Positions 9,870 through 26,568 of a stretch of 37,035 nt of DNA are shown piece by piece. The position numbers and the translations under genes are program-made. Below the pieces are notes generated by a model. That model was not told the origin of the DNA. It made no database searches and worked only from the letters and a program-made list of their open reading frames with translations. How positions within the stretch are numbered: position 1 is the stretch's first letter; every line of letters starts with the position of its first letter. This DNA is from a bacterium (GTDB taxonomy: Bacteria > JAJVIF01 > JAPKYR01), in contig JAPKYR010000164.1 of the NCBI GenBank assembly GCA_026394215.1, positions 1 to 37,035 of the forward strand, read 5' to 3'.

Positions 9870-9883
9870 ATAAGTTGAAATTA

Positions 9884-12325
9884 ATGAATGCTCTTCTTGA
9901 AATAATAAAAGAGAAACGAAAGGAACTCCTTTACGCCTGGATATTATTCGCGATATTTGTCGTGTCGCAGTATCTCTATCGGTTCGCTCACCAGGAAGAA
10001 TTTACCTTAACTGTCGCTCTTGAATATATTTTCGGTTTTTCACGATACATGATCCTGCCATGGGTCCTTACCATACTTCTTGGGTTGTCGGGATATGTAC
10101 TTGGGCGGATTTTCCTGGGGATTGTCGCGAAGGACCTGAAATACAGGTGCGACCTTGAAGAGACCATCTGGGCGATTGGAACCGGCCTGGGACTGATTGC
10201 GCTCATTACTTTTTTCATCGGGCTTGCCAAGCTGATCTACTCTTTTATTTTCGTACTCCTCTTTATTTTTCTTCTCGTTGGCGGATTTAAACACCTTAAA
10301 CATTTATCGAATGTCGTCAGGAAAGGGCTTAGACCTCTCAATCTGGATCTGCTGGAATGGGTACTATTCGCTCTTTTCGTTGCGATTGTCGCAAATACCT
10401 TCTTCCTCACATGCAACCCAACCATAAGTTACGATTCGCTCACATACCATCTTGCGGCGCCGAAGTTCTATATCCGTGAACATGCAATCGCTTATCATCC
10501 ATGGATCCATTTCAATAGCTTCCCGCAGCTTCAGGAAATGCTCCTGATGCTTCAGATGATGGTGATAAAAGACCCTGGGGGATCGCTCTCGTACTTCTGT
10601 ACATTGCTTGCCGCGGCGACTATTTATTTCACCGGGGAGATGTATTTCTCGAAAAAATCGGGCGCAATCGCAGCAGTGCTTTTCATGCTGATCCAGGAGA
10701 TTTACCAGGACAGCAAATCGGCGCTTGTCGAAAATATCCTGATTTTCTATACGGTTCTCCTCCTCCATGGATTTCTGGCCTGGGCGGAAACGAAAGACCG
10801 TCGATGGCTCGTTCTGATGGGCATCGGGGGCGGACTCGCCTGTGGCGTGAAATATTTCGGGATTACGACAGCCTTTTTCCTGATTATCCTGATGGTCGTA
10901 GCTTATTATCTCCCAAGGTTCAAATGGGAGAGGATTGAAACAGTAATCGAACCGGTTGTGGCCGGGCAATCTGAAGACGAAACCAAAAATAATAACAATA
11001 ATAATACCAATCACAAAAATATAATTAAAAAGAATAATATAAAATTATCACCGAAGGCAATAGCGAAGGAGACAAGGGTTCTAAAACCTGTCAAACCTCT
11101 TAAGCATCCCGGGCTCGTGGGAGCTATCGGACTGGTCATCCTCTGGACCGCGATTATTGGGTCGCCATGGTACATAAGGAATATCGTCCTTTTCGGGAAT
11201 CCATTCTTTCCTTTCTATGAAAACATTTTTGGTGCATTTAAATTCGGGACATTGAGCCAGTACAAAGTATCGGCTGCGATAGATCATTTAGAGATGCTGC
11301 AGTATTTTCATTACAATCTGACACCTCTGAGGTTTATCACTTCACCGTGGGACTGGACTTTCCATCATAACTATCCGTGGTTCCAGAGCGATCATCCCGG
11401 CGCGGTGGGGCCATTCCTTCTTGCGTTGACCCCGGTACTTTTATTCGTGCGCAAGTGGCGGAAGTCTGCGATCCTGTACGGATTATTTACCCTCATTTTT
11501 TACATGTACTGGCTTGTGGGAGAACGGATTCAACACCTTCGCTATATGGCGACCGCATTTCCGATTCATTGCCTGGTAATCGCGTGGGGGGTCACGGACG
11601 TCTTCAACCTGAATAAGTTTACGTCGCGAAAAAAATCGCATATTTTCATGCTCGTTCTTTTGTTGACATTCGGATTCAGCTTTTTCTACCGCACGACAAG
11701 CTATCAGGGAATAGGAGCTACTAACATTTATTTTACGGACCAGTCCCGGAGCGTTTATTTAACGGCTCAGTTGGCAGAATTCACAATAATTGACAAGGTC
11801 ATCAACACGCAGATCAGGAAAGGCGAGGAGATGGTGGCGGCGGGAGAGGTCGATGCGGCTAGGCTGGTCCTGACAAAAGATACAATAATATATGGATTAA
11901 GCTGCGAGAACAGGCGGTTTTATGTCGATTGCATGTTGATCGGTGGTTTATTCGGGTACGCGAACTATAAGGAATTCATGGATCATGCGTCGACCAGCGA
12001 TGAGCTTTACGAATATCTGCATTCACTGGGTTGCGACTTTCTCCTTGTGAATAAAACAGTGGCGCAGAGGATGGATTATCGCGTCGATATCCAGCTTCCG
12101 GAGGATGAGCAATTTACGCAAAGGTTCGAGGAGATCGCGCGGATGGGGGACGTGATTTTCTATTACCTTGCGGGACCGGGAGAGGAAAGACATCTGAGTG
12201 GATTTAATGTCGACAATGAAGGACCGAGCCAGACGGAAGGTGGGGAGACGCCGGAGTATCAGAGGATAGTGCCGGAGCAGCCTGAGGACCTGTTGGAGAA
12301 TCCAACCAGCCAGCCTGGGTATTAG
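9884..12325 (+). CDS. GT-C-like polytopic membrane protein, paralog of the preceding gene
   Basis: About 813 residues from the ATG at 9884; a TTG at 9875 is a possible alternative start. The layout matches the upstream gene: TISYDSLTYHLAAPKFYIRE with the probable catalytic Asp, HFNSFPQLQEMLLML, PWYIRNIVLFGNPFFPFYENIFG, and a C-terminal region with FGYANYKEFMDHASTSDELY. It differs by a long hydrophilic loop of about 70 residues at about 345-415 holding an Asn/Lys-rich low-complexity run, encoded by an AT-rich stretch at 10983-11050. The last 45 residues are a Pro/Glu-rich tail with no counterpart in the paralog. Likely role: transfer of a sugar from a lipid carrier to an envelope component, in a unit with the preceding protein. 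The acceptor is unknown. Confidence 0.8.
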   Translation: MNALLEIIKEKRKELLYAWILFAIFVVSQYLYRFAHQEEFTLTVALEYIFGFSRYMILPWVLTILLGLSGYVLGRIFLGIVAKDLKYRCDLEETIWAIGTGLGLIALITFFIGLAKLIYSFIFVLLFIFLLVGGFKHLKHLSNVVRKGLRPLNLDLLEWVLFALFVAIVANTFFLTCNPTISYDSLTYHLAAPKFYIREHAIAYHPWIHFNSFPQLQEMLLMLQMMVIKDPGGSLSYFCTLLAAATIYFTGEMYFSKKSGAIAAVLFMLIQEIYQDSKSALVENILIFYTVLLLHGFLAWAETKDRRWLVLMGIGGGLACGVKYFGITTAFFLIILMVVAYYLPRFKWERIETVIEPVVAGQSEDETKNNNNNNTNHKNIIKKNNIKLSPKAIAKETRVLKPVKPLKHPGLVGAIGLVILWTAIIGSPWYIRNIVLFGNPFFPFYENIFGAFKFGTLSQYKVSAAIDHLEMLQYFHYNLTPLRFITSPWDWTFHHNYPWFQSDHPGAVGPFLLALTPVLLFVRKWRKSAILYGLFTLIFYMYWLVGERIQHLRYMATAFPIHCLVIAWGVTDVFNLNKFTSRKKSHIFMLVLLLTFGFSFFYRTTSYQGIGATNIYFTDQSRSVYLTAQLAEFTIIDKVINTQIRKGEEMVAAGEVDAARLVLTKDTIIYGLSCENRRFYVDCMLIGGLFGYANYKEFMDHASTSDELYEYLHSLGCDFLLVNKTVAQRMDYRVDIQLPEDEQFTQRFEEIARMGDVIFYYLAGPGEERHLSGFNVDNEGPSQTEGGETPEYQRIVPEQPEDLLENPTSQPGY

Positions 12326-18154: not shown

Positions 18155-20707
18155 ATGAATAACACAGTTCGCATTCCAGTATTTTTATTTTTTGTCATGC
18201 TCCTGTTATCAGGCATTGCATGCTCAAAAGGGCACTCTCCTGTTACATTACCGGATATTTCTCAAACGGAACAAATTTCCGCTCAAACTTCCACTGGTGG
18301 ACACCACCTGCTTTCTTACTCGATCATATTCGCTAATCCGGACACCATGGAATTTACTCTCGTACCGGCGAGGGCCATTTCAACCCATTTTAACATCCTT
18401 AACTGGCTTGAAAAGGATCCATGCACGGACTGCGTTACCATTACAAAAGTCCAGAAACTCCTCAATAACAACTTCCTGGTATCGCTCAGGTTTACGCATC
18501 CATTCCCGAGTACGAATGTTACCGCATTCGACGTCAGAGGAATAATGATGTTCCACGGCAGCCAGACCTACCCGGTCACCGGCCTGACCGCTTCGAACAT
18601 CTATAAGAACGATTCAGACCTGATGAATCCCGATGGATACACTGCGCTTTACAATTTCTCAACCGCCGGCCAGGGCTACGACGGTCTTCAGGGGTACCAG
18701 CAGGGCGATTTGGCATTCAGCATCCCCAACACCACAGTGAATGGCTACAAAATGTATTACTCGGATATTCCTTCTAATCTCCGACACTATTTCATCGCGG
18801 GATCACAGGTTACTGCCGACTTTGAGATTCACTTTTCAACAGGGACTGTCGCTCTTGGCTACGCGGTGGACGCCTCCTGGGCGATGCCATTCGTCATTCC
18901 GGTAACCGATCCCCTATCTCAGTTCCCCCCGGAAGCCAACTGTCCCGAACCATGGCAAGTAGTGGCCACCGAGGATCTCCTCTCCAATACTCTCACAAGC
19001 CTTGGCGGCAGCACTACAATCGCGATCGATGTATACGATTATCTGGGCATGGCAACTTACAAAACTCCGACTGTCGAATGCCCAGACCTGTTTACCGGCT
19101 TAATACCAGCAACTTTTGTAGAATCCTTGACGGATCATGACCGATGGACTGTGACTATCCCTAATTCAAACCTCGTACCCGGGGGACAGTACCGGGCACT
19201 TATAAAAGTTGAAGATAACGATAACGATACCGCCCCGTCATGGCTGGACCTGTCCACGTATCAGATAGTGACTTTAGCGGTTACGTCCCAGACCACCTTC
19301 GGTGGCTGGGCAGTCACTTTTGGCGGAGATGATTGGGATACTGCGTTATCTTCAGTTGCCGATTCCCAGGGAAACGTTTATGTAACCGGCGCCTTCTCCA
19401 CCACCTGCAATTTCGATCCCAATGGATCCGCTGTCAAAACAAGTCAAGGCGGGCGAGATGCATATCTTGCCAAGTACGATTCAAATGGAAATTTCGTATG
19501 GGTCAATACCTGGGGGGGCACAAACTGGGAAATGGGAGTTAATGTGGCATTGAACGGCGACGATGTGCTTTGTTATGGATATTACGAAGGTACTGTGGAT
19601 TTCTCAGGCGGCAGCGGGACAGATGTTCGCGAGGCAATAGGTAATATGGACTACTTTCTCTCATCGTACAACGCTTCGACCGGGGTTCGTAAATGGACAG
19701 CAACGTGGGGAAGCAACAATTACGACTATGCGAACGGATTGGGTGTCGATTTTGCAGGTAATATTTATCTTGGTGGAACGTTTGGCGGAAAATGTGATTT
19801 CGACCCCGGTTCGGCAAAATTCGAAGTAACCCCGATCGGATATGACGCATTCCTGTTAAAACTCAATAAAAACAGTGGTTTTCAATGGGTCCGCACATGG
19901 GGTGCAGACACGGGCGAGGACATGAAAGTTACCGACATCGCCACAACCCCGAGTGGTGAAACGTGGATGTGCGGTTATTTCTGGGATACTGCCGATTTCG
20001 ATCCCGGTGCCGGTATAGATATTCATACATCGACCGGGCAGGCAGACTGCTGGGCTTCCAGATTCGACCAGAACGGCAACTTTAAATGGGCTCGAACGTG
20101 GGGAAATCCAGATTCTGAGGATAAAGCATATGGAATCGAGCCTGACTTCGTGGGCAACAGCTATATCACGGGAGAATTTCGTAATACAGTCGATTTTGAC
20201 CCGGGAGCGGGTGTCCAGAATTTAGAGTCAGCCGGACTTCTCGATGCTTTCCTGCTCGAGCTTGACATAAGCGGTAATTATGTATGGTGCGGAGCCATGG
20301 GCGGGGAAGACGATGATTCCGGCCGCGGCGTTACCATCGAGTCCTTCGGAAATATTCTGGCAGTTGGCGAGTTCAGCGGCAATGCAAACGTCAGTCCTAC
20401 AGAAATACCAAGCTATCGGAACTCCAATGGCTCAAGTGATGTTTTCCTCAGCAAGATCTCGCAATCGCACGAATTTCTCTGGGGTGACGCGTGGGGGGGG
20501 ACAGACCAGGAACATTTCGATCTTTTGAACTGGTTCGAGTTTGGAAATCCAGTATCCGTTGACATTTTCGGGAAGGTCTATGTCTGCGGCGAGTTCTCCG
20601 ATGTTGTGAATTTCAATCCAAATAACGGCGATCCTGCCGATAATCACACCTCATCAGGTAGTTTTGATGCGTTTATTACAACTATCCCTCCGAACGGAAC
20701 CTGGTAG
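18155..20707 (+). CDS. Seven-blade SBBP-type beta-propeller lipoprotein
   Basis: An 850-residue lipoprotein with lipobox SGIAC near residue 23 and AAAGGA 8 bases before the ATG. The N-terminal domain, to about residue 380, carries motifs shared with the minus-strand paralog at 22000-24486: THFNILNWLEKDPCTDC, RFTHPFP, AFDVRGIMMF, NPDGYTALYNF, ALGYAVDASW and FPPEANCPEPW. From about 382 there are seven units of about 60-65 residues (GGWAVTFGG, FVWVNTWGG, KWTATWG, FQWVRTWG, FKWARTWG, YVWCGAMGG, FLWGDAWGG). Each has a conserved internal DxxGNxYxxG and usually FDP/FNP, the pattern of SBBP repeats. Seven units would close a beta-propeller. The protein is probably surface-exposed; ligand unknown. Confidence 0.85.
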   Translation: MNNTVRIPVFLFFVMLLLSGIACSKGHSPVTLPDISQTEQISAQTSTGGHHLLSYSIIFANPDTMEFTLVPARAISTHFNILNWLEKDPCTDCVTITKVQKLLNNNFLVSLRFTHPFPSTNVTAFDVRGIMMFHGSQTYPVTGLTASNIYKNDSDLMNPDGYTALYNFSTAGQGYDGLQGYQQGDLAFSIPNTTVNGYKMYYSDIPSNLRHYFIAGSQVTADFEIHFSTGTVALGYAVDASWAMPFVIPVTDPLSQFPPEANCPEPWQVVATEDLLSNTLTSLGGSTTIAIDVYDYLGMATYKTPTVECPDLFTGLIPATFVESLTDHDRWTVTIPNSNLVPGGQYRALIKVEDNDNDTAPSWLDLSTYQIVTLAVTSQTTFGGWAVTFGGDDWDTALSSVADSQGNVYVTGAFSTTCNFDPNGSAVKTSQGGRDAYLAKYDSNGNFVWVNTWGGTNWEMGVNVALNGDDVLCYGYYEGTVDFSGGSGTDVREAIGNMDYFLSSYNASTGVRKWTATWGSNNYDYANGLGVDFAGNIYLGGTFGGKCDFDPGSAKFEVTPIGYDAFLLKLNKNSGFQWVRTWGADTGEDMKVTDIATTPSGETWMCGYFWDTADFDPGAGIDIHTSTGQADCWASRFDQNGNFKWARTWGNPDSEDKAYGIEPDFVGNSYITGEFRNTVDFDPGAGVQNLESAGLLDAFLLELDISGNYVWCGAMGGEDDDSGRGVTIESFGNILAVGEFSGNANVSPTEIPSYRNSNGSSDVFLSKISQSHEFLWGDAWGGTDQEHFDLLNWFEFGNPVSVDIFGKVYVCGEFSDVVNFNPNNGDPADNHTSSGSFDAFITTIPPNGTW

Positions 20708-21999: not shown

Positions 22000-24486
22000 T
22001 TACCAATAACCGTCGGGACGCAGCTTCATGATGTATCCTGCATGCGATTGAGGGGCAGAAAGCAGGTATTCAGCCAAACCCGGGTCAAAATCGATTGTTC
22101 CAATGAAATATCCGCAGAGAATCGAAGAGCCGATGTCGTCGAAAACCGAATCATTGCAGTGTTCCCAGGTATCATGACCGGTCCAGGTTCGCCCCCAAAT
22201 GTATTCACCGGAGGGGCCAAGCTTCAGCGCAAACATATCCTCGTGATCGTCGCAGGTTTTCATATCCACTCCAGGACCTGGATCGAAGTCAATGCTGCCA
22301 TAGAATTCTCCGGTAATTACGACATCTCCAGCATCGCTCACAGCAACTGACTTTTGTAAAGCGTGACTGGGAGAGGATCCATAGTTCTGGACGAACAGGT
22401 GATTGCCTTCCGAATCGAACCTTGTAATAAATAATTTACCGTCCGCGGGATCCTTGGAGTCGATATCCGGTCCGGGATCGAAATCCGCGACAGAATAAAA
22501 ATCTCCGATAATGCATGTATTTCCGTACGAGTCGCATGTAATATCCGTGATGTGGTCGTCGCTATATCCTCCAAAAGTACGGCACCAGATAAAATTACCA
22601 TCCTTATTATACTTGCTGAGATAGATATCCTGTGAATCGCCATATGATGTATGTATTTCCTCACCCGGACCGGGGTCAAAATCAACAGTAAAATAATAAC
22701 CGCCTGTAACATAAACGTATCCGGAATTATCGGCGGCAACACCCATTGCTCTCTCATCTTCGGAATTTCCCCACGACCTGACCCAATTCAAACCACCCTC
22801 GGTGTCATATCGCCTGAGAAACGCATCGTTATTCTCATTCAGCCCCACCATATATATTCCCCCCGGTTCGGATGGAGACCAGCAAGCCCCTTCGCAAATT
22901 TCAACGCCAATTGCCCCGGAGGTTACAGCCCACTGATATACGCCATTTGAATTGAATTTTGAAAGGTAGAGATCTGTGACGAATCCGGTATCAACCGTTG
23001 AATGTTCATCGACGCCGGGGCCGGGGTCAAAGTCAACTGAGCCGTAAAAGAATCCGGCAAGATACACACTCCCATAGCTGTCAACGACGACCTCTTCTGC
23101 CGTATCGGGTCCACTATGCCCGAAGCTTACACCCCATCGATATAGCCCATCCGGGTCAAACTTAATCAGGAATACGTCGCCATCTCCTCCTCCATTATGT
23201 GCATCGACCCCCGGTCCCGGGTCGAAATCCATATTGCCATAAACCGTACCAGAACAGAAAATATTTCCATTCAAATCCCTTGCTATATGTTTAACAATAG
23301 TCCAGCCGGTAGGATCCTGACCACCCCATGACACAACCCATCCGGGAGAGCCGGAAGTTTCTCCGATTTCCAGCCGCGCAAGCTGGTATGCGAGAATATT
23401 GCCGTGGATTGGATCCGGCTCGTCTCCTATGACGCGAACCATCAGCCCGAATTCCCCTTCGCTTGAAGCATTCTCATTAGTAACTGATGCGGTGAAAAAT
23501 CCGATATTGGCTCCCTGTCCCCCGGTTTGAACCATGTCAATCAGTCCATCGAAAACATAAGGCGCATACAGTTGGACGGAGGAAACCGTGTCGATTCCCT
23601 GGTGGTCATATACTGCCACATTGACGATCACAAAACTGCCCGGTAATGTATCCAAAGCACCATCGACATCCACATCGATCCTGTAAGGTTCAAGGCAGTT
23701 CGCTTCGGGCGGAAAATCCACCTCCGGATCCGTAACGTCCCCGCCGGTCGGACTCCATGCCGCATCTATCGCATAGCCAAAAGCCAGAGGTCCGTCGGGG
23801 AGATGAACATCCAGAGTCTGAACACTGCTGCTCCCCGATGTAAGCATACGCCTGGGGCTTGCCTTCTGGTAAGCGACAAATGGGTTTAAAGTGGCATCCA
23901 GCAGACCGTTAATCTGGTACTTGCCGGGTGTATATTTCAATAAGGGAGATACCGGCGCATCCTGGGGATAATCGACAGGATTGAACAGGTCCGTGTATCC
24001 ATCCGGGTTTAACAAAACCAGCGAATCCGGACCCATCGTCAGGTATTGCCAGAAGGCCGGAAAAAATGTATCCGCTTTTGTGATTACGATCCCCCTTGGA
24101 TCGAAACAAGTCAACTCAGGTATGCCCGGAAACGGATGTGTGATCCGCATATCTACGGTAATTTCATTTGGTGAGATGATCGCCACATTCTGAAGGGTCA
24201 GGCAATCATTGCACGGAGCGTTTTCCATGAAATAAACAAGGTTGAAATGACTTGCCCCGGAATGCCGGGGAATTGCCTCAACGGAAGTTCTGTCGGCATT
24301 GATACTGATTTCCCAGAGCCCCAGCAATCCCCGATTGGTATAATTTTCAGATGTGAGACCGCCAGTACCGCCGAAATTCTGCTCCGGAAGCTCATCAGGC
24401 GTTGCTGGATTAATCCCGCTGCCGGAAGAACATCCGGAAAAGACAATTAATATAAATGCCATCACGGCAGGAAATATTCTACACAT
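22000..24486 (-). CDS. Seven-blade SBBP-type beta-propeller lipoprotein, paralog
   Basis: An 828-residue lipoprotein (lipobox IVFSGC, Cys19) with GGGAGG about 10 bases before the ATG at 24486. The N-terminal domain shares, in the same order as in the plus-strand paralog, SHFNLVYFMENAPCNDC, RITHPFP, CFDPRGIVI, NPDGYTDLFNP, AFGYAIDAAW and FPPEANCLEPY. From about residue 380 come seven SBBP-type units (WVVSWGG, YRWGVSFG, YQWAVTSG, LNWVRSWG, FIWCRTFGG, LFVQNYG, YIWGRTW). Most contain an almost invariant DFDPGPGVD, an acidic loop that may bind calcium; the third unit lacks it. It is likely surface-exposed. It is encoded opposite to its paralog with the unknown membrane protein between them. Confidence 0.85.
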   Translation of the reverse strand: MCRIFPAVMAFILIVFSGCSSGSGINPATPDELPEQNFGGTGGLTSENYTNRGLLGLWEISINADRTSVEAIPRHSGASHFNLVYFMENAPCNDCLTLQNVAIISPNEITVDMRITHPFPGIPELTCFDPRGIVITKADTFFPAFWQYLTMGPDSLVLLNPDGYTDLFNPVDYPQDAPVSPLLKYTPGKYQINGLLDATLNPFVAYQKASPRRMLTSGSSSVQTLDVHLPDGPLAFGYAIDAAWSPTGGDVTDPEVDFPPEANCLEPYRIDVDVDGALDTLPGSFVIVNVAVYDHQGIDTVSSVQLYAPYVFDGLIDMVQTGGQGANIGFFTASVTNENASSEGEFGLMVRVIGDEPDPIHGNILAYQLARLEIGETSGSPGWVVSWGGQDPTGWTIVKHIARDLNGNIFCSGTVYGNMDFDPGPGVDAHNGGGDGDVFLIKFDPDGLYRWGVSFGHSGPDTAEEVVVDSYGSVYLAGFFYGSVDFDPGPGVDEHSTVDTGFVTDLYLSKFNSNGVYQWAVTSGAIGVEICEGACWSPSEPGGIYMVGLNENNDAFLRRYDTEGGLNWVRSWGNSEDERAMGVAADNSGYVYVTGGYYFTVDFDPGPGEEIHTSYGDSQDIYLSKYNKDGNFIWCRTFGGYSDDHITDITCDSYGNTCIIGDFYSVADFDPGPDIDSKDPADGKLFITRFDSEGNHLFVQNYGSSPSHALQKSVAVSDAGDVVITGEFYGSIDFDPGPGVDMKTCDDHEDMFALKLGPSGEYIWGRTWTGHDTWEHCNDSVFDDIGSSILCGYFIGTIDFDPGLAEYLLSAPQSHAGYIMKLRPDGYW

Positions 24487-25401: not shown

Positions 25402-26352
25402 TTACAAAATCGGATCCCAGGTCTGTACTCTCGGATCCCACATGCTCTTAAACTCGTTAAGCCCCTCCCCTAAATTATCAGGGTTAAACATCCTCACTAC
25501 CTGGTCCTCTGTTACCCCAAAAGTCATAAGGTATCCGGGACGAGAATCCCTTGGATAAGCAACAACCGTAAAAGTATGAACGCCATAAAAGGTGCCCATG
25601 TCTGAAATGTCAGGAGTGTTATAGACCGACCAGGTCATCGAATAATTCTCTATAATGTTTCCCAGGTTGTATCCTTCTGCAATATACAGTGTATTTTTCA
25701 AAGCCTCAAATGATCCGAAGTCCTTTTTGTCATTCGTATCCTGGTAAGCGAGTTGGCTTGATCCCGTTGATCTAAGCGTTCCTTTTGCCCGTGACATCCA
25801 TGCTTGTCGGGGGGAGGACAAAGGGATTGGGAATAGAACCGACATCAAAAACAGGAGAACAAAAATTGCTACTCCATTACTTCCCGAAATGACCCAGGGT
25901 CGCACGTCATCCTTACTTCGCTCATAAACCCAGGTTATTCTGCGGTAAGTCCCTATAGCCAGAATCCAGATGATTCCAGCATGGCAAATCCCAATAAAAA
26001 GGAAGTCATATGAAAGAAAGCTTACAGGATCAAATTCCATGTATGGCCTGATGAACAAATAAATTACGGTAACTGAGAGGATCGTCGCGATAGTAAAGGA
26101 GGTTTTCTTTTTATTCACTGGGGAGAATAAAGTCCCGAACCAGAGGAAGGCGAGTGGCCCAAAAACCAGATTTAGAATAAATGCCACGACAAAAAAGGAC
26201 TTGATGAATTTAATTACACTGTTCGGGGAATGTATGTGCGGAAGCGAAAGAAAGTAGTATTCAATAATCGCGATGATGAGCATCGCCAGGGCGAATTTTA
26301 CCCAGCTACCCGATTGTGATTTTGTTTCTATTTCGGTCGTGTCTTTCTGCAC
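25402..26352 (-). CDS. Polytopic membrane protein with pilin-like C-terminal domain
   Basis: 316 residues. About five hydrophobic helices occupy residues 15-185. The last (VAIFVLLFLMSVLFPIPL) leads directly into SPRQAWMSRAKGTLRSTGSSQLAYQD and a globular region with GSFEALKNTLYIAEGYNLGN, IIENYSMTW and FTVVAYPRD. This globular part resembles the soluble domain of type IV pilin-like proteins after their N-terminal helix, including the SQLAY and GSFxxL signatures; I infer this from pattern recognition only. No prepilin peptidase site is present at the N-terminus, so the domain would be displayed by a multi-pass anchor. The start is a GTG at 26352 without a clear Shine-Dalgarno; other starts are possible. 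Confidence 0.72.
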   Translation of the reverse strand: MQKDTTEIETKSQSGSWVKFALAMLIIAIIEYYFLSLPHIHSPNSVIKFIKSFFVVAFILNLVFGPLAFLWFGTLFSPVNKKKTSFTIATILSVTVIYLFIRPYMEFDPVSFLSYDFLFIGICHAGIIWILAIGTYRRITWVYERSKDDVRPWVISGSNGVAIFVLLFLMSVLFPIPLSSPRQAWMSRAKGTLRSTGSSQLAYQDTNDKKDFGSFEALKNTLYIAEGYNLGNIIENYSMTWSVYNTPDISDMGTFYGVHTFTVVAYPRDSRPGYLMTFGVTEDQVVRMFNPDNLGEGLNEFKSMWDPRVQTWDPIL

Positions 26353-26568
26353 GGTAATTTATTTTACCATAAAGATTTCTGTATTGAAAAATTCATACAG
26401 TCTTGCGATCACAGATTATCCGGATTCCCGTTCCCGTCATGGCCGCGGATTCCGGCGGCACCCGCTCCGCTTGTCGTCGCCACACCGCTCCATGATACAA
26501 TGTTCCTATGCTGCTCGAAGTTCGTGATGGTTTAAATGGATGTCTGTCAGAATAAAAGGAGGCCAGAC

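Follow-up and report, generated by a model that had tools for sequence, protein, structure and literature searches.

A 37,035-nucleotide stretch of bacterial DNA, referred to here as the window, carries a gene for a multi-pass membrane protein whose end looks like a globular head taken from a type IV pilin (Table 1). That this head is tethered to the membrane, and that it comes from a pilin gene, is held with high confidence. The fusion is confirmed as real, and consists of one open reading frame, five helices and then a head of 133 amino acids. The explanation preferred here is that the protein is a tethered, non-assembling pilin paralogue whose head contacts pilin or the pilus machine; as a whole, this statement is tentative and earns somewhat less than even confidence.

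A pilin head behind a membrane anchor

An earlier sequence-only reading of this DNA had proposed that the last of about five helices runs into a pilin-like domain. Hydropathy places the helices of the window protein at residues 20-38, 52-70, 83-101, 117-135 and 160-178, and the homologous head occupies residues 184-316, in agreement with that proposal. The reading frame is uninterrupted and contains, within residues 184-316, the amino acid strings that the sequence-only reading had quoted. The N-terminal tail, formed by the first 19 residues (MQK...EIETKS), is invariant in all four fusion proteins. The window protein has no Pfam or NCBIfam match at E ≤ 1, residues 1-153 show no Pfam family above the cut-off for the window row, and no output domain was recognised in the protein by family-library searches.

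Table 1. Features of the fusion gene and of the segment preceding it, in window positions.
Feature	Position	Strand	Description and basis
Whole open reading frame of the fusion	25402..26352	-	316 codons and a stop, starting at GTG; membrane protein with five helices and a pilin head at the C-terminus
Residues 1-153: N-tail and helices 1-4	25894..26352	-	N-tail, helices, profile search
Residues 154-183: helix 5, degenerate pilin alpha1-N	25804..25893	-	Alignment with prepilin L003
Residues 184-316: pilin head, from alpha1-C (AWMSRAKGTLRSTGSSQLAYQ) to WDPIL	25405..25803	-	Homology; predicted to lie outside the inner membrane (K/R count)
Conserved upstream element TGGTAAAATAAATTACC	26353..26369	-	Abuts the GTG; resembles an extended -10 box

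GTDB species genomes were scanned with a peptide pattern, which matched 28 stretches, two of them confirmed. A full-length fusion at 56% is found in the MAG CSMAG_1386, filed at NCBI as Planctomycetota. There, three fusion genes lie in tandem (locus L009), and their products are 58, 51 and 56% identical to the window protein by alignment; another contig of that genome (L010) carries a pair of lipoprotein-like genes that share this head. Genome G001, of the same genus as the window, holds three fusion places at 52-58%. Recurrence of the fusion in related genomes, which the sequence-only reading had proposed as a check, is thus observed in the form of three tandem homologues in a congeneric genome. 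The four-helix part gave strong profile matches only in two genomes of the window's genus, and five weak matches from beyond the phylum (E 0.003-0.009) are regarded as chance similarity between membrane proteins. C248, a gene encoding a single transmembrane helix, resembles the first 34 positions of the four-helix part (E 2.4e-4) and looks like a shortened fusion gene. No plasmid match was obtained, and two scans of viral contigs returned no relative.

The head has nine further matches at E ≤ 1 in the window's genome, spread over seven genes. One of these genes, on contig C307, encodes a prepilin (KGFTLLELLVV..., PF07963 E 6.5e-10) whose head is 73% identical to that of the window protein over 129 aligned codons; the window head and its L009 homologues are 64-68% identical. 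A profile of 22 collected heads, from which the pilin helix was omitted, matched seven pilin heads outside the phylum (hhalign 96.2, pairwise E 2.4e-9). Against the same outside-phylum profile, 16 heads from non-pilin carriers reached 94.6, and the narrowest profile, made of seven heads of the fusion, one-helix and lipoprotein group, reached only 51.8. In a first control set of 60 stretches, two scores were high (80.1 and 99.7) and are presumed to come from leftover pilin frames. For the second set, 15 of 101 frames were removed because of a prepilin pattern or a head match, and the remaining 86 stretches gave maxima of 6.4 against the all-heads profile and 1.2 against the outside-phylum pilin profile, these two being the profiles used for controls rather than the non-pilin-carrier or the narrowest one. 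Because the head is 73% identical to that of a prepilin of the same genome, and because head-only profiles match pilin heads outside the phylum, the window head is judged to be homologous to pilin heads and pilin-derived. The pilin-type head on a multi-pass protein that the sequence-only reading had proposed is therefore upheld, and its suggested check for true pilins with a similar domain yields prepilins with the same head, including the C307 protein of the window's own genome.

Structure prediction speaks neither for nor against the pilin fold. AlphaFold models had a mean pLDDT of 42.8 for the full protein (six-row alignment) and 42.3 for helix 5 plus head. Foldseek returned 69 matches at E ≤ 10 for the latter low-pLDDT model, none of them at E ≤ 0.001, and no pilin was named among the best 50 of the 69. 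The profile of 22 heads had 0 matches at E ≤ 1 among PDB sequences. The pilin fold attributed to the window head is thus a prediction from homology and not from the structure model.

When helix 5 is aligned with prepilin C307 (L003), with the residue register read by eye, the Gly of the cleavage site is replaced by Trp and Glu5 by Ser; the homologue L009a has Pro and Gly at these two positions. Pro22 and the AWMSRAKGTLRS stretch are retained in the window helix. No match to PF07963 or TIGR02532, which would mark the class III signal of a type IV pilin, was found at E ≤ 1, and the pilin-like helix is, by hydropathy, the fifth of five rather than a single N-terminal helix free to leave the membrane. 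The prepilin cleavage site is missing, as had been noticed from the sequence at the outset. In the account of pilus assembly given in part of PMC10191384, the prepilin leader is cut by prepilin peptidase and Glu5 matters for docking, with one tip subunit of natural pili being devoid of Glu5. Since helix 5 carries no prepilin peptidase site and four more helices hold the protein, the window protein should be unable to build pili.

Lys and Arg residues number 10 in inside loops versus 3 in outside loops of the window protein, and 9 versus 3, 10 versus 4, and 7 versus 2 in the L009 homologues. As these counts favour the inside loops, the N-tail is probably inside and the head outside. The stretch immediately following helix 5 is K/R-rich (3-5), contrary to the positive-inside expectation, and the true prepilin has the same K/R-rich stretch at the same place in the alignment.

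Carriers and ancestry of the head

The head profile matches all four examined genomes of this little-sampled phylum, at 54 places with E ≤ 0.001. In a scan of 385 genomes, with at most 11 candidates scored per genome, matches at E ≤ 1e-4 were obtained in four genomes, which are the four of that phylum in the set. Thirty stretches read in six frames yielded 60 head-bearing frames, which were sorted using a loose prepilin pattern, helices from hydropathy and signal peptides recognised by eye. A prepilin motif is present in 36 frames and absent from 20; four were left unjudged (C215, C225 and G003 C1, without an N-terminal part, and C71, which has a degenerate GFSLIG motif). The 20 motif-less carriers comprise four five-helix, two three-helix and five one-helix proteins, two lipoproteins, six proteins of secreted type (signal-like N-terminus, no lipobox; one with two heads) and one LRR protein. 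The head is not always C-terminal, and some 35-90 residues follow the match in C280, C436 and C84. That relatives put the same head on several kinds of envelope protein suggests that pilin heads are reusable as stand-alone parts.

Several individual loci deserve mention. At L078:6853-7809 (G003 C162), a signal-like N-terminus is followed by two pilin heads in tandem, and at L081:9200-10696 (G003 C91), a protein that appears LRR-like by eye, and whose start is off the contig, has a pilin head at its end. At L074:8473-10580 (G002), a true prepilin comes first, and the next gene encodes a 420-aa protein whose N-terminus is signal-like and which ends in the same head. Prepilin genes with distant forms of the head are clustered at L060 (G000 C199) and L059 (G003 C80), where they number at least eight and at least nine, respectively.

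A first tree was built from 34 heads of 33 of the 60 frames, the 27 left out being 23 prepilins and the four unjudged frames. The window head groups with the three L009 fusions and the one-helix protein C248 (96/87), next to the C307 pilin (93/84), and the carrier label requires seven changes, two of them forced by well-supported branches. In a second tree, from which six long-branch rows (two carriers and four prepilins) were removed by hand, the window clade is recovered again (90/88) and the label requires six changes (5-6 over bootstrap trees), three of them forced. The G002 prepilin groups there with the adjacent 420-aa carrier (96/89) and the nearer G003 heads group together (97/93), while support is weaker (87/87) for a group of the nearer heads from the window's genus. 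Some heads depart from this grouping by genome: four distant prepilins, drawn from all four genomes, cluster together (100/99), and the heads of the secreted C171 and of C280/C436 stand apart in the second tree. One clade of all 19 carriers was rejected (p-AU 2e-25), as was one clade of nine close carriers versus three prepilins (p-AU 1e-11); the test is weakened by the naming of the groups after the first tree was known, and it does not fix a direction of change. Because a single carrier clade is rejected, transfer of the head between carriers seems to be recurrent.

The tree paths from the window head, 0.53-0.57 to the fusion genes and 0.66 to C307, contradict the ranking by identity, in which C307 comes before the L009 homologues. 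A slowly evolving pilin may be sufficient reason for the likeness to C307. In the 88 columns of residues shared by the C307 pilin and the window head, the fraction of shared codons is 0.35, which is at chance (0.34 expected), and at the DNA level the C307 pilin and the window gene have no identical run longer than 12 bases. These two values indicate that the C307 and window sequences split long ago, with no recent copying or gene conversion. Among themselves, the fusion genes and C248 share 0.58-0.79 of codons. The pS values above 0.75 had raised the idea of recoding; the sharing of codons at chance level shows saturation instead. Codon bias gives no clue to expression, the C307 pilin having an unremarkable ENC of 56.6 (290 of 400 slices of window genes have a lower or equal value). 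Between the window gene and L009a, dN/dS is 0.33 in the N-terminal part and 0.27 in the head, both rough values that come from Nei-Gojobori counts at a dS of 0.75-1.25. Helix 5 is looser, with dN/dS up to 1.18 in some pairs.

The upstream element and the gene neighbourhood

A version of TGGTAAACTAAAWTACC directly precedes the GTG codon in each of the five genes of the window clade; besides the window copy listed in Table 1, these elements are at L009:4001, 5022 and 6010 and at L002:1116. A pattern made from the five elements, with up to two mismatches allowed, gave six matches in the four genomes, five at the clade genes and one, with two mismatches, in G003; the reversed pattern gave one match. 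The element may represent an extended -10 box promoter with a leaderless start. In the same test, 13 of the 21 window genes, whose starts are not curated, also have no Shine-Dalgarno-like stretch, so that its absence does little to indicate a leaderless start. In the C307 pilin gene, AAGGAGG precedes the ATG.

No prepilin motif was found in the six frames of the window, and therefore no operon link is visible there by this motif search. The platform protein (PF00482) is present in all four genomes of the phylum and the prepilin peptidase (PF01478) in two of the four; the latter was not found in the window's own genome, which is 93% complete. Elsewhere in the window, the middle of a large membrane protein encoded at 9875-12325 contains a low-complexity stretch rich in Asn and Lys (NNNNNNTNHKNIIKKNN), and the frames at 18155-20707 and 22000-24486, on opposite strands, encode two secreted repeat proteins that look alike and have FDPG-type motifs.

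Possible roles of the tethered head

According to the preferred explanation, a type IV pilin gene of this lineage would have been duplicated, and the duplicate would have lost the prepilin leader, the cleavage site and Glu5. A four-helix membrane anchor would have been placed in front, the old pilin helix becoming a fifth transmembrane helix that is not extracted into a filament. The head would then be anchored at the outer face of the inner membrane, in the place that pilin heads occupy until they are assembled. It would work by contacts, most likely with pilin or the pilus machine, and through them report on or tune the pilin supply. The conserved cytoplasmic tail and the loops could relay this contact or set the place of the protein. 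Such contact could signal the supply of pilin, block it or simply mark a site. The sequence-only reading is partly supported as a whole, and the sensor or decoy that it had suggested is a possible role. Common partners for both heads may be argued, though not strongly, from the fact that the pilin head is old yet still close. Observations that speak for the paralogue are the likeness of its head to C307 and to pilin heads outside the phylum, the missing prepilin motif, the K/R counts, the dN/dS values, the old split from C307, the upstream element of its own at each fusion copy and the platform protein in all four genomes. Several observations speak against it: the occurrence of this head also on lipoproteins, on secreted proteins and on an LRR protein, which would fit a general binding domain as well; the absence of a prepilin motif from the window and the failure to find PF01478 in its genome; and the AlphaFold pLDDT of about 42, the score of 51.8 for the narrowest profile and the tree paths closer to the fusion genes. 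Contact of the window head with the pilus system, taken by itself, is possible but somewhat doubtful.

The head could instead be a general extracytoplasmic binding domain with no link to pili, the five-helix protein being the sensing end of a small receptor. This is also possible, if on the whole a little more doubtful. It accommodates a head shared by one-, three- and five-helix, lipid-anchored, secreted and LRR carriers, a window without prepilin motif, and the existence of an exported family, DUF2950, with a C-terminal half resembling pilin heads. It sits less well with a window protein in which no output domain is recognised and whose head is closer in identity to its own pilin (73%) than to L009 (64-68%), although on this last point the tree paths say the opposite. 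It has also been considered, as an unlikely but not negligible alternative, that lineages of this phylum repeatedly moved their own pilin head onto polytopic, lipid-anchored, secreted and LRR carriers, where it would serve as a fixed or released matched head that recognises or controls the pilus. Portability of the head may be wider still, as pilin heads seem to be present also in DUF2950 proteins and in a DUF4190 fusion from beyond the phylum.

The DUF4190 fusion (L121, genome G209, frame from 1237) is a protein of 917 aa made of a zinc ribbon, DUF4190, a pilin head and a further C-terminal part. Its head reaches hhalign 98.3 against outside-phylum pilin heads and 13.4 against the all-heads profile of the phylum. 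Like the window protein, it has a multi-pass N-terminal part followed by a pilin head, but the anchor is a DUF4190 with zinc ribbon and an additional part follows the head. The survey covered 30 DUF4190 loci, with long frames viewed to 330 residues and the DUF4190 frames of L119 and L125 left out; L109, L111 and L116, pilin-like at the C-terminus by eye, were rejected (hhalign 0.1), and only L121 was borne out. PF13828 (DUF4190) has no match at E ≤ 0.001 in the four phylum genomes. For DUF2950 (PF11453), proteins L134-L137 and L139, from genomes outside the phylum, were compared: the C-terminal half scores 83.3 against outside-phylum pilin heads, 63.4 against all heads collected, and 21.7 and 17.7 against two narrower profiles, versus 0.1-0.3 for the N-terminal half. 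These exported proteins share with the window protein a C-terminal half resembling a pilin head and differ from it by their N-terminal half, which has a signal-like N-terminus by eye. PF11453 has no match in the four phylum genomes. A G080 prepilin (L138) matches the DUF2950 model at E 9.8e-4. Given L121 and the C-terminal half of DUF2950, the grafting of the head would not stand alone in nature, and a pilin head on another carrier does not appear to be unique to the phylum.

The remaining alternatives are weaker. It is improbable that the head is a sorting or docking tag, by which carriers would be handled by, or placed beside, a type II secretion or type IV pilus machine. The C-terminal position of the head in five-helix, three-helix, lipoprotein and LRR carriers would suit a tag, as would its place at the end of the 420-aa protein with a signal-like N-terminus whose gene immediately follows that of a true prepilin in G002, but C280, C436 and C84 continue beyond the head, one secreted protein has two heads, and a polytopic protein needs no export through such a machine. 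Decay of functionless pilin duplicates would account for the loosely conserved helix 5 and for the seemingly shortened C248; it is very improbable in view of intact reading frames, constraint on both halves, four full-length copies and a conserved upstream element. The gonococcal pilS locus is a store of silent pilin cassettes, and many divergent heads per genome beside one close prepilin might recall such a store for pilin variation. This idea is hardly credible here, since a pilS-like cassette would have to be nearly identical in DNA to the pilin that is expressed, and the window gene shares with the C307 pilin neither a long DNA run nor codons above chance. A missed gene boundary joining a membrane protein to a pilin gene, against which the sequence-only reading had cautioned, can be dismissed: the same uninterrupted fusion is found in four genes of two genomes, three of them tandem full-length homologues in a congeneric genome, and a head made by itself would lack any visible export signal. 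The only point in favour of such a boundary is that one Met lies in helix 5 and another at the head start.

The preferred explanation, that of a tethered pilin paralogue, can be set against known systems. In Pseudomonas, PilS senses PilA; it would resemble the window protein as a multi-pass protein that monitors pilin in the membrane, but it is a histidine kinase and has no pilin head. With type IV pilins that have a class III signal peptide, such as C307 (L003), the window protein shares the head, alpha1-C, Pro22 and the probable orientation, and it differs from them by the absence of the cleavage-site Gly and of Glu5 and by the four helices in front. In Geobacter, GSU1496/GSU1497 (PilA-N/PilA-C) represent a head protein encoded beside a short pilin with which it pairs, as far as described in the consulted parts of PMC5174107, PMC10191384 and PMC11046646. 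There too the head is set apart from the pilin's own alpha1-N stick, whereas the window head is covalently placed behind membrane helices and no prepilin motif lies in the six frames of the window. Other domains are grafted on the pilin module in PilB and PilC of S. sanguinis (PMC10191384) and in CpaL of Caulobacter, which has a possible prepilin cleavage site (PMC12607857, in part). The window protein resembles these as a case of domain grafting that involves pilin, and is unlike them, to the extent that these sources describe them, in that its pilin head is grafted on a foreign anchor, that is, in the reverse direction.

A word search of the open-access literature found no pilin head on a polytopic protein described in titles or abstracts. 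Pilins have been seen as filament subunits onto which other domains are grafted (PMC10191384, in the part consulted). In this phylum the traffic seems to be reversed: on more than one occasion the head would have left its stick and become attached to another envelope protein. Should the tethered heads be in contact with the pilus, they would serve as natural probes of pilin recognition. If they make no such contact, the pilin head would be an unrecognised general envelope domain, and families such as DUF2950 could be re-annotated.
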